A DNA stretch of 64,000 nucleotides from an uncultured Roseateles sp. (GTDB lineage: Bacteria; Pseudomonadota; Gammaproteobacteria; Burkholderiales; Burkholderiaceae_C): assembly GCF_945956965.1 (NCBI RefSeq), contig NZ_CAMFJS010000016.1, positions 1 to 64,000 of the forward strand, given 5' to 3'. A program made the translations under genes and the position numbers. How positions within the stretch are numbered: position 1 is the stretch's first letter; each line of letters opens with the position of its first letter. The notes beneath the pieces were generated by a model. The model was not told the DNA's origin. It searched no databases and worked only from the letters and a program-made list of their open reading frames with translations. Below are positions 12,316 through 17,435 of the stretch, one piece after another.

Positions 12316-12975
12316 ATGCCCAACGCCCTCATCTTCGACCTCGACGGAACCTTGATCGACACCTTGGGCGATTTTTGCGAAGTGCTGAATCGGGTCTTGG
12401 CTGAGCTGGCCTTACCGGCAGTGACGCGCGACTTTGTCGAATTGACTGTCGGGCAGGGCAGCGAACATTTGATCCGCAGCACATTGGCGCATGTCGGCGG
12501 CGATGCGGCCTTGTATGAGTGTGCCTGGGCCGCCTACCAGGCGCACTACGAGGCCATCAATGGCGAGTTCTCGGCCATCTTTCCTGGTGTGCTGGAAGGC
12601 TTGGAAAAAGCCAAGCGGCTTGGCTTGCCCTTGGCCTGCGTGACCAACAAGCCGGCGGCATTCGCCAAAGAATTGCTGCACCGCAAAGGCTTGCTGGGCT
12701 ATTTCGATCAGGTCTTTGGCGGCGACAGCTTCGCGCGCAAAAAGCCCGATCCCATGCCTTTGCTCAAGACCTGTGAGGCCATGGGCACGCAGGCCGGCGA
12801 GACTTGGATGATTGGTGACTCCAGCAACGATGCCAAGGCGGCATCGGCTGCGGGCTGCCCCGTGGTTTTAGTCAGTTATGGCTACAACCACGGTGAGCCC
12901 ATTCGCGCAGTGCCGGCCCTGCAGCATGTGGACCGGCTGGATCACATCAATTACGACCCCGCGCCTCGCGCTTGA
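12316..12975 (+). CDS. gph: Phosphoglycolate phosphatase, HAD superfamily
   Basis: This enzyme hydrolyses 2-phosphoglycolate to glycolate. The 219-residue protein has HAD motif I (FDLDGTLIDT), with the nucleophile Asp and the acid/base Asp two residues later. Motif II Thr lies in ACVTNKPAAF, the motif III Lys lies in ARKKPDP, and the motif IV acidic pair lies in MIGDSSND. The helical cap between motifs I and II is typical of Gph. The ATG at 12316 directly precedes motif I. Gph is commonly encoded next to trpE in Burkholderiales, which fits. The 3' end overlaps the convergent chalcone-isomerase-like gene by 29 bases. Confidence 0.92.
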   Translation: MPNALIFDLDGTLIDTLGDFCEVLNRVLAELALPAVTRDFVELTVGQGSEHLIRSTLAHVGGDAALYECAWAAYQAHYEAINGEFSAIFPGVLEGLEKAKRLGLPLACVTNKPAAFAKELLHRKGLLGYFDQVFGGDSFARKKPDPMPLLKTCEAMGTQAGETWMIGDSSNDAKAASAAGCPVVLVSYGYNHGEPIRAVPALQHVDRLDHINYDPAPRA

Positions 12976-13555
12976 TGCCCATCAGCGCTTCTTTGAGCGC
13001 CTGATCAGCGGGCGACTTGCCCAACCAGATGCGCAAGAAGGCCGAGTAGAACTCGGGCTCGCGAATCGGCGCACCTTGCACCTTGCCGTTGAGTTGAATC
13101 ACCGAGCCAGTGCCGGGGATGTAGTCGACCGAGAAGTGCTCGCCCACTGCCAGCCCTTTGCGGCTGGAAAAGATCTCGCCCACGCGCAGCACGCCGTTGA
13201 TGGCTTTGCCGAACTCTTCGCGGGTGGCGTTTTGTTCCATGCCCTTGGTGAACAAGCGGCCCAGTTCGGCGGCATCCACTTCGCGCAACATGGTCAGATG
13301 CAGGCGTTTGGGGACGTTGCTGCTCAGCGCTACTTCAATGTCATCGGTCTTTTTGCCCAGGTAGAGCCCCGCGGTATAGACCTTGAAGACGGCCTTGTAA
13401 CGCACGCCCGCACCATTGAGTTCGATCATATTGCCGTTGACGTTGACGGGACTCTCGTACTTCACCCCGGCCACCTCCACTGTTTCGGCGCTCAGGGCCG
13501 GGCTAGTCAAAGGAAGCAGCAGGCCCATGGCCGCGGCAATCAAGAAAACACGCAT
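12947..13555 (-). CDS. Exported chalcone-isomerase-like protein
   Basis: This 202-residue protein carries a signal peptide (MRVFLIAAAMGLLLPLTSPALSA). It has the chalcone isomerase-like fold pattern of bacterial exported homologues (PF16036 type): VAGVKYESPVNVNG, then GAGVRYKAVFKVYTAGLYLG, then SSNVPKRLHLTMLREVDA. The bacterial members have no proven enzyme activity and probably bind fatty acids or other small hydrophobic ligands in the periplasm. It stands alone on the minus strand, convergent with gph. The residues near the C-terminus (EFYSAFLRIWLGKSPAD) are also conserved in this family. Confidence 0.88.
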   Translation of the reverse strand: MRVFLIAAAMGLLLPLTSPALSAETVEVAGVKYESPVNVNGNMIELNGAGVRYKAVFKVYTAGLYLGKKTDDIEVALSSNVPKRLHLTMLREVDAAELGRLFTKGMEQNATREEFGKAINGVLRVGEIFSSRKGLAVGEHFSVDYIPGTGSVIQLNGKVQGAPIREPEFYSAFLRIWLGKSPADQALKEALMGIKREARGRN

Positions 13556-13964
13556 GCTTTATCTCCTAGTCTAGTTATGGCTGTGGTCCGGGTGATGTGA
13601 TGCACAGCTTGGGCTTCTCTGCTTGCCCAGCTGCGCAGTATCTGCCAGCGAAGCGCGGCATCTTTCATCAAATGCCGCGATTGCGAGGCCCACTGCGTTA
13701 CATATTTCACCAATCACGAGGCCTGATGCGCGGGAAATTGGCCTGTACCGCTTACTGCGGCGAGCAAGTGGCTCCGGCGCTGTGAAGCGCTGCCATGCCC
13801 AGATTTTCGCACTCGGGCTTGCTTCAGGCGGCTGTTGCGGCGCCTGGCACGCCCGTGCTTGGGTTGAGAAACGGGCCGCTTCAGATGGGCGCTAGGCCCG
13901 CAAGCAATCGAAATCGCCCGCGTGACGGCAGCATCTTTGCTGTCATCGGCGCGGCAGCTCGCGC
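13556..13964. other. Intergenic region before the trp leader
   Basis: About 410 bases between the divergent chalcone-isomerase-like gene and the trpE leader. No gene, tRNA or repeat was recognised. The 3' end contains the extended -10 promoter listed separately. Confidence 0.55.
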
Positions 13965-13973
13965 TGCTACACT
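13965..13973 (+). promoter_or_regulatory. Extended -10 promoter for the trp leader/trpE transcript
   Basis: TGCTACACT is an extended -10 element (TGn plus a TACACT hexamer). No good -35 hexamer is seen at 16-18 bases upstream, which is typical for extended -10 promoters. Transcription would start about position 13980, exactly at the ATG of the leader ORF, so the leader would be translated from a leaderless mRNA. Confidence 0.45.
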
Positions 13974-13979
13974 GGGCTC

Positions 13980-14066
13980 ATGTTCATCACGCGCAAGCAC
14001 ATCAAAGGGTCGCATGACCGGGGAGCCTGGCCCTGGCGTCGTCGCTCGCACGTCTTCAATCGCTGA
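13980..14066 (+). CDS. trpL: Putative trp operon leader peptide (28 aa, Trp-Pro-Trp)
   Basis: This short frame of 28 codons starts with ATG at 13980 and ends with TGA at 14064-14066, 199 bases before trpE. The peptide begins MFITRKHIKG and contains AWPWRRR, so Trp codons stand at positions 17 and 19 around a proline. Two near-adjacent codons for a rare amino acid in a short frame before trpE are the signature of a tryptophan attenuator. The Trp codons overlap an RNA segment that can pair with downstream RNA (see the 14029-14168 entry). There is no ribosome site; the frame would begin at the 5' end of the transcript. The call is an inference from sequence; conservation has not been checked. 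Confidence 0.6.
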   Translation: MFITRKHIKGSHDRGAWPWRRRSHVFNR

Positions 14067-14168
14067 AGCCGCTTGATGCTGCATGACCGGTTGCCTCTCA
14101 CTCCAATGAGTGACGCGGCCGGCGCGAAACCTGACCTGAGCCCATGCTGGCACACCGGTCGGTCGCGT
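14029..14168 (+). promoter_or_regulatory. Candidate tryptophan attenuator RNA with alternative pairings
   Basis: Segment A (GGCC 14029-14032 and GCGTC 14036-14040, over the leader Trp codons) can pair with segment B (GACGCGGCC, 14112-14120) through 9 base pairs and a 3-base bulge. Segment B, extended to 14113-14123 (ACGCGGCCGGC), can instead pair with segment C (GTCGGTCGCGT, 14158-14168) through 11 pairs, two of them G-U. The two structures exclude each other. A ribosome stalled on the Trp codons would cover A and allow B-C. No U-tract follows segment C, so the output may be translational or rho-dependent rather than an intrinsic terminator. Confidence 0.5.
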
Positions 14169-14242
14169 GAAAAATTCGCTGTCAGCCAAGCGCCCTGAAT
14201 CCAGCGGCGCGCCCCAACACCTGCTTTGCCGGGCCGCCGTCT

Positions 14243-14258
14243 CCCTTCCTTCAAAGGG
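14243..14258 (+). promoter_or_regulatory. Small hairpin overlapping the trpE ribosome-binding site
   Basis: CCCTT (14243-14247) can pair with AAGGG (14254-14258). The AAGGG arm is also the ribosome-binding site of trpE, 7 bases before its ATG, so the hairpin could limit trpE translation. The stem is short (5 bp) and may be fortuitous. Confidence 0.35.
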
Positions 14259-14265
14259 TTTCGTG

Positions 14266-15753
14266 ATGACTGAACTTGAATTCAAAAGCCTGGCCACCCA
14301 AGGCTTTAACCGCATTCCGCTGATCAGCGAAGCTTTTGCTGACCTGGAAACCCCACTCTCGCTCTACCTCAAGTTGTGCGCCAGTGGCGCGGGCGGCGGC
14401 AAGAACAGCTTTTTGCTGGAGTCGGTGGTGGGCGGCGAGCGCTTCGGCCGCTATTCCTTCATCGGCCTGCCGGCCCGCACGGTACTCAAGAGCCACGGCC
14501 GCATCACCGAGGTCACAACCGATGGCCAGCTGACCGAGCGCCATGAGGGCGACCCGCTAGCCTTCATCGAGGCCTATCAAAAGCGCTTCAAAGTGGCGCT
14601 GCGCCCCGGCATGCCGCGGTTCTGTGGTGGCCTGGCCGGTTACTTTGGCTATGACGCGGTGCGCTATATCGAGCCCAAGCTGGCCAAGACGGAAAAGCCC
14701 GGCGGGCTCAATACCCCCGATGTGATGCTCTTGCAATGCGAAGAGCTGGCCGTCATCGACAACCTGTCGGGCCGGCTCTACCTGATCGTCTACGCCGACC
14801 CGGCCCAGCCCGAAAGCTATTTCCGCGCCCAAAAGCGCCTGACCGCCCTGCGTGACCAGCTGACCTATAGCGTCAGCGCGCCGCAGGTCAAACGCGTGCA
14901 GTCGCATCCCGTCGAGCGCGAATTTGCCAAGGCCGACTATCTGGCCGGCGTGCTCAAGGCCAAGGAATACATCGCCTCGGGCGATGCGATGCAAATCGTC
15001 TTCGGCCAGCGCTTGCGCAAGCGCTACACCGAGTCACCGCTGAGCCTGTACCGGGCGCTGCGTTCGCTCAACCCCAGCCCCTATATGTACTTCTACGACA
15101 TGGGGGACTTCCAAATCGTCGGCGCCTCGCCGGAGATTTTGGTGCGCCAAGAAGCAGGTGTGGCCGGGCAGCAGACGGTGACGATACGCCCGCTGGCGGG
15201 CACCCGCCCGCGCGGCGCCACCACCGAGCTGGACCATGCTTTGGAAGCCGAACTCAAGGCCGACCCCAAGGAGCGCGCCGAACACCTGATGCTGATCGAC
15301 CTGGCCCGCAACGACCTGGGCCGCATCAGCGAGACCGGCTCGGTCAAGGTGACCGATGCTTTTGCGGTGGAGCGTTACTCGCATGTCATGCACATCGTCT
15401 CCAATGTGGAGGGGCAGCTGCGCCAGGGCCTGAGCAGCATGGACGTCTTCCGCGCTACGTTCCCGGCGGGCACCCTGAGCGGCGCCCCCAAGATCCGCGC
15501 GATGGAAATCATTGACGAGTTGGAACCCGTCAAGCGTGGCATTTACGGCGGTGCCTGCGGCTACCTGAGCTTTGCCGGCGATATGGATCTGGCCATCGCC
15601 ATCCGCACAGGCATCGTGCAAGACCAGACCCTGTATGTGCAGGCCGCGGCCGGCGTGGTGGCCGATTCGGTGCCGGAGCTGGAATGGGCCGAGACCGAGC
15701 ACAAGGCCAGGGCCTTGATTCGCGCAGCTGAGTTGGTGGAAGAGGGGTTTTGA
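14266..15753 (+). CDS. trpE: Anthranilate synthase component I
   Basis: TrpE converts chorismate to anthranilate using ammonia delivered by TrpG, the first committed step of tryptophan synthesis. The 495-residue product has the N-terminal regulatory domain with the LLES tryptophan-binding motif (residues 50-53), so feedback inhibition is expected. The C-terminal chorismate-binding domain includes [30 protein letters not shown] and the segment [18 protein letters not shown]. The ATG at 14266 is preferred over a GTG at 14167 because [10 protein letters not shown] is the usual N-terminus and AAGGG precedes it. The gene ends one base before trpG. Confidence 0.97.
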
Positions 15754-16352: not shown

Positions 16353-17435
16353 ATGAAAATTGTTGACCTCCGCAGCGATACCGTCACCCGACCCACGGCC
16401 GCCATGCGCGAGGCCATAGCGCGCGCCGAGGTGGGCGACGATGTGTTCGGCGATGACCCCACGGTGCTGGCCCTGCAGCAGCGCGTGGCCGAGCTCACCG
16501 GCATGGAGGCCGCGCTCTTCATGGCCTCGGGCACGCAAAGCAATTTGTGTGGCCTGCTGGCGCATTGCCAGCGCGGTGATGAATACATCGTCGGCCAGCT
16601 GGCTCACACCTACCGTTACGAAGGTGGTGGCGCTGCCGTGCTGGGCAGCATCCAGCCGCAACCACTGACGCAGGACGCGCAAGGGCGCATGGCCTTGGCC
16701 GATATTGCCGCCGCCATCAAGCCCGACGATCCGCACTTCGCGCGCAGCAAGCTGCTGTGCCTGGAAAACACCTGGAACGGCCAGCCCATGGCGCACAGCT
16801 ATCTGGCCGAGGCCACGGCCCTGGCGCGCCAGCATGGCCTGGCTTGCCATCTGGATGGCGCGCGGGTCTTCAATGCAGCAGCCTTTGATGCCGGGCCGGG
16901 CGGCGATGTGTTCGCCGCGCTGCGCCGCATCACCGCGCATTTCGACAGCGTCTCGGTCTGCTTCAGCAAGGGCTTGGGCGCGCCGGTGGGCTCGATTTTG
17001 TGCGGCTCGCGCGAGCTGATCGGGCGCGCGCATCGCATCCGAAAAATGGTGGGCGGTGGCCTGCGCCAGGTGGGCTTGCTGGCCGCGGCCGCCAACCATG
17101 CCTTGGACCATCATGTGCAGCGCCTGCATGAGGACCACGCCCTGGCCGCGCATTTGGCCGCGGGCCTGGGCGGCATCCCGGGCCTGAGCGTGCGCTCGGC
17201 CGCCACCAATATCGTTTTTGTCGATGTGGCCGATGGCCGCGGTGCCGCCTTGCTGGCGCATTTGAAGTCGCGCGGCATCTGGGCCACCGGCCTGATCGGC
17301 CTGCGCTTTGTGACCCATCTGGATGTGGACAGCGCCGGTGTCGAGCGCACGCTGGCAGCGGTGCGCGAGTTCTTCTCGGCCGATGCCGGCCCGCACGACC
17401 TGACCCTGGCTGACTCGACGGCCGGACCCTATTGA
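16353..17435 (+). CDS. ltaE: Low-specificity L-threonine aldolase
   Basis: This PLP enzyme cleaves L-threonine or L-allo-threonine to glycine and acetaldehyde. The 360-residue protein begins [15 protein letters not shown], typical of the family. It contains [11 protein letters not shown], the active-site His region ([12 protein letters not shown]), the Asp that holds the PLP ring ([12 protein letters not shown]), and the Schiff-base Lys in [14 protein letters not shown]. The gene lies between trpG and trpD with gaps of 13 and 17 bases and appears co-transcribed. Aldolase activity has no known step in tryptophan synthesis, so its place is a local peculiarity. Confidence 0.93.

Follow-up and report, generated by a model that had tools for sequence, protein, structure and literature searches.

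What controls expression of trpE, the first gene of the trp cluster carried by the window (the whole 64,000-nucleotide stretch of DNA analysed here)? Attenuation by tryptophan is a textbook system, and we found none described for betaproteobacteria in the open-access papers searched. An initial annotation saw the logic of ribosome-mediated attenuation in a short open reading frame (ORF) with two Trp codons upstream of trpE. Is this ORF a genuine leader, and if so, by what output could it act on trpE?

A Trp-codon leader is conserved upstream of trpE

The trpE product carries the Pfam domains Anth_synt_I_N and Chorismate_bind, and downstream of the leader the genes follow in the order trpE, trpG, a beta-eliminating-lyase (threonine-aldolase-like) gene, trpD and trpC. 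Features of the locus are collected in Table 1.

Table 1. Positions of genes, signals and RNA elements around the trpE leader (window numbering)
Feature	Position	Strand	Remarks
gph-like HAD hydrolase gene			first in gene order before trpE
Chalcone-isomerase-like gene (PF16036)	12947-13555	-	between gph-like gene and trpE leader
Extended -10 element TGC-TACACT	13965..13973	+	ends 6 nt before leader ATG
Leader peptide ORF, MFITRKHIKGSHDRGAWPWRRRSHVFNR	13980..14066	+	28 codons, ATG 13980
Hairpin a, GGUC-N4-GACC	14008..14019	+	mutually exclusive with hairpin b
Hairpin b	14014..14039	+	14018-14023 with 14031-14036, plus 14014-14016 with 14037-14039
23-nt stretch GACCGGGGAGCCTGGCCCTGGCG	14016..14038	+	nearly invariant, holds both Trp codons
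Trp17-Pro18-Trp19 codons TGG CCC TGG	14028..14036	+	variants AWLW, AWAW, AWSW among relatives
Small hairpin CUUC/GAAG	14054..14068	+	spans leader stop; 4 pairs form in 26-31 of the 32 closest leaders
P2 5' arm	14070..14081	+	begins 4 nt past leader stop
P2 3' arm CAGCCAAGCG	14183..14192	+	no U-tract after
Small hairpin CCCUU-CCUUCA-AAGGG	14243..14258	+	holds likely trpE Shine-Dalgarno
trpE	14266..15753	+	start ATG 14266, alternatively GTG 14263
Threonine-aldolase-like gene (Beta_elim_lyase)	16353-17435		between trpG and trpD in trp operon

The 28-codon frame with Trp at codons 17 and 19, read from the window alone in the initial annotation, proved to be conserved. A 15-row leader profile found matches in 206 of the 299 genomes of the window's family (E<=1e-3), leaving 93 without a match; among the matches listed, two fell in one genome. 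We also collected leaders with the pattern GCNTGGCCNTGG, searched over the 900 nt before trpE and the first 50 nt within it. From 250 loci, 218 had a trpE start, 151 matched the pattern, 146 had an ATG and a downstream trpE, and 139 were distinct. These 139 comprise 133 window-type and 6 Burkholderia-type loci (4 assigned from the genome handle, the other two, L046 and L057, from the peptide). A-W-P-W is fixed in this set by construction, while flanks, wobble positions and promoter were free to vary. The Asp (135 loci), Arg (137), Gly (136) and the Arg after WPW (138) were nearly invariant.

The N-terminus MFxx[RK]K (codons 1-6, window 13980-13997), which lies outside the RNA hairpin described below, recurs in related families with some synonymous codon changes between them. 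This hints at constraint on the peptide as well, and at a possible peptide-level function. Where the pattern was absent (70 trpE loci), a different short ORF with closely spaced Trp codons was present in 31, against 6 after shuffling; the 31 include the Oxalobacteraceae leaders EAWLWRRWQSW. Possible distant Trp-rich leaders were also seen before trpE in L068 (Uliginosibacterium), L069, L071, L073 and L076, with the motifs GGAWPWRRRR, GAEAWPWRP, LLDWRWQSWR and FRPWRWCR.

Four of the 18 genomes of the genus lack both the leader and its 23-nt core, indicating that the leader is dispensable. In three of these (L016-L018, genomes 91-99% complete) a gph-like ORF ends 8 nt before trpE, and promoter and leader are gone; in the fourth (L015, 79% complete) the promoter-like TGATACACT is kept and the ORF is gone. 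These natural deletions indicate that the leader is a removable module. Across genomes, the comparison indicates that the ORF before trpE is a genuine, widely conserved Trp-codon leader.

The leader transcript is predicted to be leaderless

The extended -10 element that had been proposed just before the 28-codon frame is readable in the window, and from its position transcription is predicted to start at the A of that frame's ATG or right beside it. Of the 133 window-type loci, 127 have a TAnA[ACG]T hexamer whose end lies 6-10 nt upstream of the ATG (TACACT in 103); the 6 Burkholderia-type loci within the 139 have none. At the same distance, the hexamer occurred in 1/28 Oxalobacteraceae-like and 0/30 Burkholderia-type loci. 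Since the putative -10 lies so close to the ATG, the window-type transcript should be leaderless or nearly so. The earlier suggestion of a leaderless leader peptide thus gains support from a many-genome comparison.

The Trp codons lie in a near-invariant hairpin

Both Trp codons fall in a 23-nt stretch whose exact sequence is shared by 108 of the 133 window-type loci and, among Burkholderia-type loci, by 16 of 30; all 28 Oxalobacteraceae-like loci differed from it by at least 5 mismatches. It was exact and single-copy in 14 of the 18 genomes of the genus, single-copy with at most one mismatch in 5/5 genomes from other genera of the family, and found in 0/16 genomes from other families of the order, that draw including one Oxalobacteraceae-like genome and none of Burkholderia type. 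A second copy that might serve as a DNA operator was not found, with at most one occurrence per genome in 39 genomes. Viral contigs gave no exact match to the first 21 bases of the stretch, and plasmids searched with the leader peptide gave none.

Synonymous codons are also fixed. Over the 139 loci, the leader uses GAC for 134 of 135 Asp, CGG for 137 of 137 Arg, CCC for 138 of 139 Pro, and GGA for 127 of 136 Gly (the remaining 9 being GGG). In trpE of the same loci (up to 300 codons per locus), these codons make up 80% (GAC), 11% (CGG), 37% (CCC) and 2% (GGA) of their synonyms. This fixation of synonymous codons indicates that the RNA is under selection. The constraint on the 23-nt hairpin, which extends to rare synonymous codons, seems far greater than Trp sensing by itself would require.

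The stretch folds as hairpin b (CCGGGG-AGCCUGG-CCCUGG), with A14017 bulged, Trp17 in the loop and Trp19 in the 3' arm. Within the 23 nt, the only positions that vary in more than 4 loci (A/G and C/U/A) fall in the loop. The outer pair 14014/14039 is paired in 99/139 loci (82 expected). Because the pairs of hairpin b hardly vary, its evidence is conservation and not covariation. For the alternative hairpin a, GGU[CU] stands before GACC at a spacing of 4 nt in 64 loci and 5 nt in 61, 125/139 in total. An outer stem of the leader hairpin gave a small excess of own over swapped pairing (2/2000 permutations, kinship ignored) and is not claimed.

A covarying helix follows the leader stop

The initial annotation had proposed that the Trp-codon segment (14029-14040) pairs with 14112-14120, and the latter alternatively with 14158-14168. 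This complementarity is readable in the window, and it is not conserved in relatives. By eye, the closest relative (L003) has 14112-14120 changed from GACGCGGCC to GAAGCGGCC without a compensating change, and three others (L004-L006) have no matching sequence at the place aligned to it. Of what the annotation would have an alignment of relatives check, the frame and the Trp codons are conserved; the stems are not, and the Pro between the Trp residues varies in relatives. The small hairpin said to enclose the trpE ribosome site can likewise be read in the window, but by eye it is lost in L004-L006.

Helix scans supported no classical 2:3 and 3:4 alternatives, and none were found. The 301-nt leader does not exceed its shuffles in stability (z -0.92; 16/100 as good), and over 139 loci the leader segment shows no excess pairing relative to the whole spacer (mean z -0.04). 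For a link between ribosome position and output, the candidate elements are hairpins a and b, which exclude each other, and the helix P2, which covaries.

Because GC-rich RNA made a duplex-energy scan for 5' arms too noisy, own-versus-swapped tests took its place, with kinship ignored in all helix tests. For P2, the segment after the stop was compared with a segment about 100 nt further on (in the window). In the 32 closest leaders (30 distinct rows), own pairing averaged -14.6 kcal/mol and swapped pairing -12.4 kcal/mol, a difference reached in 0/5000 permutations. The arms covary, for example CGCUUGA/UCAAGCG, CGCCUG/CAGGCG, CGCUGC/GCAGCG and CGCUUGUUG/CAACAAGCG. P2 is absent in L155, weak in L156, L163 and L164, and mismatched in L146 and L148. 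In an unbiased scan of 1017 window pairs (null sd 1.28), P2 windows scored z -3.0 to -3.3, and a hairpin inside P2 scored better (z -4.8).

The same kind of scan in Comamonadaceae-type loci (550 window pairs) ranked a hairpin at the terminator position at the top (z -6.4, 25/31 rows usable) and a hairpin right after the stop second (z -5.35, null sd 1.28, 26/31 rows usable). Pair counts in 30 Comamonadaceae-type loci give modest support for these helices: 76% of cells were paired (11/500 shuffles as high), the covariation score was matched in 24/500, and cells changed on both sides in 2/500. Separately, L113, L186, L224 and other Comamonadaceae-type loci carry GAAUGAA(C) between two hairpins (alignment A3, columns 101-120), roughly where a U-tract would be; conservation of its ATGAA columns is 90% or higher across the 30 loci.

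Related families mostly have a terminator that the window type lacks

Leaders with a related peptide (MFx..[RK]K.....AWxWR) occupy the same place before trpE in two further groups, whose family names were assigned from the leader peptides. The Oxalobacteraceae leaders (core EAWLWRRWQSW) include named loci of Massilia, Duganella, Herbaspirillum, Collimonas and others; the Burkholderia-type leaders (MFLNKKR...DRGAWPWRRW), which share the 23-nt stretch with the window type, include the named genome Pandoraea commovens. A profile built from both found matches in 28/40 and 36/60 genomes of the respective families, and it matches the window's own leader at 3.8e-5.

In contrast to the window type, these two families mostly have a terminator and an ATG start for trpE, and they lack the -10 element at 6-10 nt. 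With T5+ after a hairpin as the criterion and mononucleotide shuffles as the null, terminators were found in 20 of 29 distinct Oxalobacteraceae-like spacers, 37-77 nt past the leader stop (shuffled 0.67), and in 21 of 30 distinct Burkholderia-type spacers, 38-64 nt past it (shuffled 0.33). Window-type spacers had them in only 4/133, at scattered places, against 1.7 in shuffles, which is no excess, and the window has no terminator-like site in 13556-14300. The absence of a U-tract terminator, as first noted for the window, thus holds for the window type. Two broader scans of the 139 loci for intrinsic terminators were set aside: a T-rich scan gave 12/139 against 10 in dinucleotide shuffles, and a T5+ scan gave 7 against 3 shuffled, 3 of the 7 being Burkholderia-type.

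The trpE start, assigned by alignment, is GTG in 82 of the 133 window-type loci, plus 9 GTG/ATG; it is ATG in 28/28 Oxalobacteraceae-like and 32/32 Burkholderia-type loci. The 30-nt start regions fold more stably in the window type (-6.2 vs -3.0 and -3.6 kcal/mol), where G+C is also higher (0.64 vs 0.57 and 0.61). These parallel differences, lack of the terminator and mostly GTG starts, suggest that the leader of the window's family has a new output. Tentatively, a single ancestral trp sensor may have switched output: the terminator would have lost its U-tract, the transcript become leaderless and the trpE start mostly GTG, with control now at translation or through Rho. As part of that account, the leader module is common to three Burkholderiales groups and the 23-nt core to the window's family and the Burkholderia type. 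Since related sensors are paired with an intrinsic terminator in two of the groups but with something else in the third, the evolution of an attenuator's output becomes testable by part swaps.

Proposed mechanism and output of the leader

In the loci compared, the ORF, promoter, hairpin sequence, P2 and the place before trpE are conserved. We propose, with a probability of about 0.8, that the leader is a cis-acting tryptophan attenuator of trpE; ribosome stalling, an RNA switch and the sign of that switch are what we infer from these elements. Transcription would begin at or adjoining the ATG of the leader ORF, and the ribosome would read Trp17 in the loop and Trp19 in the 3' arm of the near-invariant hairpin. 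With enough Trp-tRNA(Trp), the ribosome would reach the stop, placing the 5' arm of P2 under its footprint; when Trp-tRNA is scarce, it would stall in the hairpin and leave P2 free.

Two explanations differ from cis attenuation in what the conserved core is for. If the DRGAWPWR peptide caused ribosome arrest in the manner of TnaC with free Trp, the near-invariant Asp, Arg, Gly and post-WPW Arg and the recurrent MFxx[RK]K would be accounted for. However, selection acts on the RNA, given that the choice among synonymous codons is fixed as well, and relatives have Leu, Ala or Ser in place of Pro; the leader does not show conservation of peptide rather than codons, the mark of a TnaC-like arrest peptide. 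We regard such a sensor as very improbable. Action in trans by the RNA of the leader or by its peptide, on the model of rnTrpL/peTrpL from Sinorhizobium meliloti, for which part of a published account offers a precedent (PMC7298713), would make the 23-nt stretch a seed for pairing with targets and would suit its invariance without covariation and its single copy where searched. The conserved Trp codons and the linkage to trpE are, however, accounted for by cis action, and we consider a role in trans improbable.

Given a cis-acting attenuator, how is trpE controlled? The leader RNA may gate the trpE ribosome site, with a stalled leader ribosome opening it. This translational output, raised as a possibility in the initial annotation, is a tentative choice. 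The mostly GTG starts and more stable start regions relative to the terminator-bearing families point to it, though G+C differs as well, as do compensating types of Shine-Dalgarno hairpin seen by eye (GAGC/GCUC and GGGCC/GGCCC). At 61 trpE sites with a strong Shine-Dalgarno, pairing with the leader segment was also better than at 201 control sites (z -1.14 vs -0.11). However, modelled stalling raised the unpaired share of the trpE Shine-Dalgarno only from 0.388 to 0.426 (0.367 to 0.391 in a shuffled-spacer control), and in the window it went from 0.47 to 0.46, so equilibrium folding does not support release of this site by a stalled ribosome. Around the trpE start there is less structure than at control sites (-10.0 vs -12.4 kcal/mol) or in shuffles (z +0.4 to +0.9). 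Pairing between leader and ribosome site, which looked strong at first, was not robust against shuffled leaders and other families: the window itself shows none (z 0.1), and Oxalobacteraceae-like loci show it to the same degree (z -0.43 vs -0.34). Of the translational proposal, then, the GTG/ATG contrast stands, while the stalling model, start-region structure and leader complementarity speak against it. Alternatively, the leader ribosome may gate Rho-dependent (or U-poor) termination in the spacer, as Rho does in E. coli tna. Window-type spacers lack an excess of intrinsic terminators, yet covarying hairpins remain at that position, and the sense strand has an excess of C (maximum C-G 0.18 per 60 nt vs 0.04 for G-C; 0.27 in the window). 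Sixteen Oxalobacteraceae spacers have the same C excess (0.178), in a comparison where 11/19 spacers have a terminator, so C-richness of the spacer is not diagnostic of Rho. Termination by Rho is doubtful, and for an output of some other kind our expectation is equally low.

Comparison with known systems

E. coli trpL shares with this leader the Trp codons of a leader ORF within an RNA hairpin and a stop next to the following helix. Where E. coli trpL has both a 5' UTR and a U-tract terminator, the window's family is without the U-tract. The leader described here would work like an attenuator but is not of the classical terminator kind: the short Trp-codon ORF before a trp structural gene is present, and the hairpin with a U-tract is absent. 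No leader matched Rfam above its curated thresholds (window and 14 loci in all), where permissive thresholds gave chance-level matches to unrelated families, and the leader peptides had no match in Pfam or NCBIfam. No description of this leader was found in a search confined mostly to open-access papers, which lends its novelty weak support.

Attenuation of the trp operon in E. coli is treated in a source that, in the part used here, places TrpR regulons in gammaproteobacteria only (PMC5343134), leaving room for RNA control in the present group. Closest in layout is the S. meliloti trpL-trpE(G) attenuator, where a Trp-codon leader ORF also precedes trpE and the transcript begins at the ATG (PMC7298713). 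Unlike the leader here, it encodes a 14-aa peptide whose Trp residues are consecutive and includes a transcription terminator, and the portion of that account drawn on does not mention an invariant 23-nt hairpin (PMC7298713). The cys leaders of Mycobacterium, as far as the excerpted report describes them, resemble it in combining a regulatory-codon leader peptide with the lack of a conserved terminator; their authors offer Rho as a weak prediction (PMC1262725). They differ in amino acid and phylum, and no conserved terminator-like hairpins are described for them in that excerpt (PMC1262725). The elements of the trpE leader thus have precedents, in the leaderless trpL of Sinorhizobium (PMC7298713) and in the terminator-less leader peptides of Actinobacteria (PMC1262725), to the extent that these partial sources cover them.
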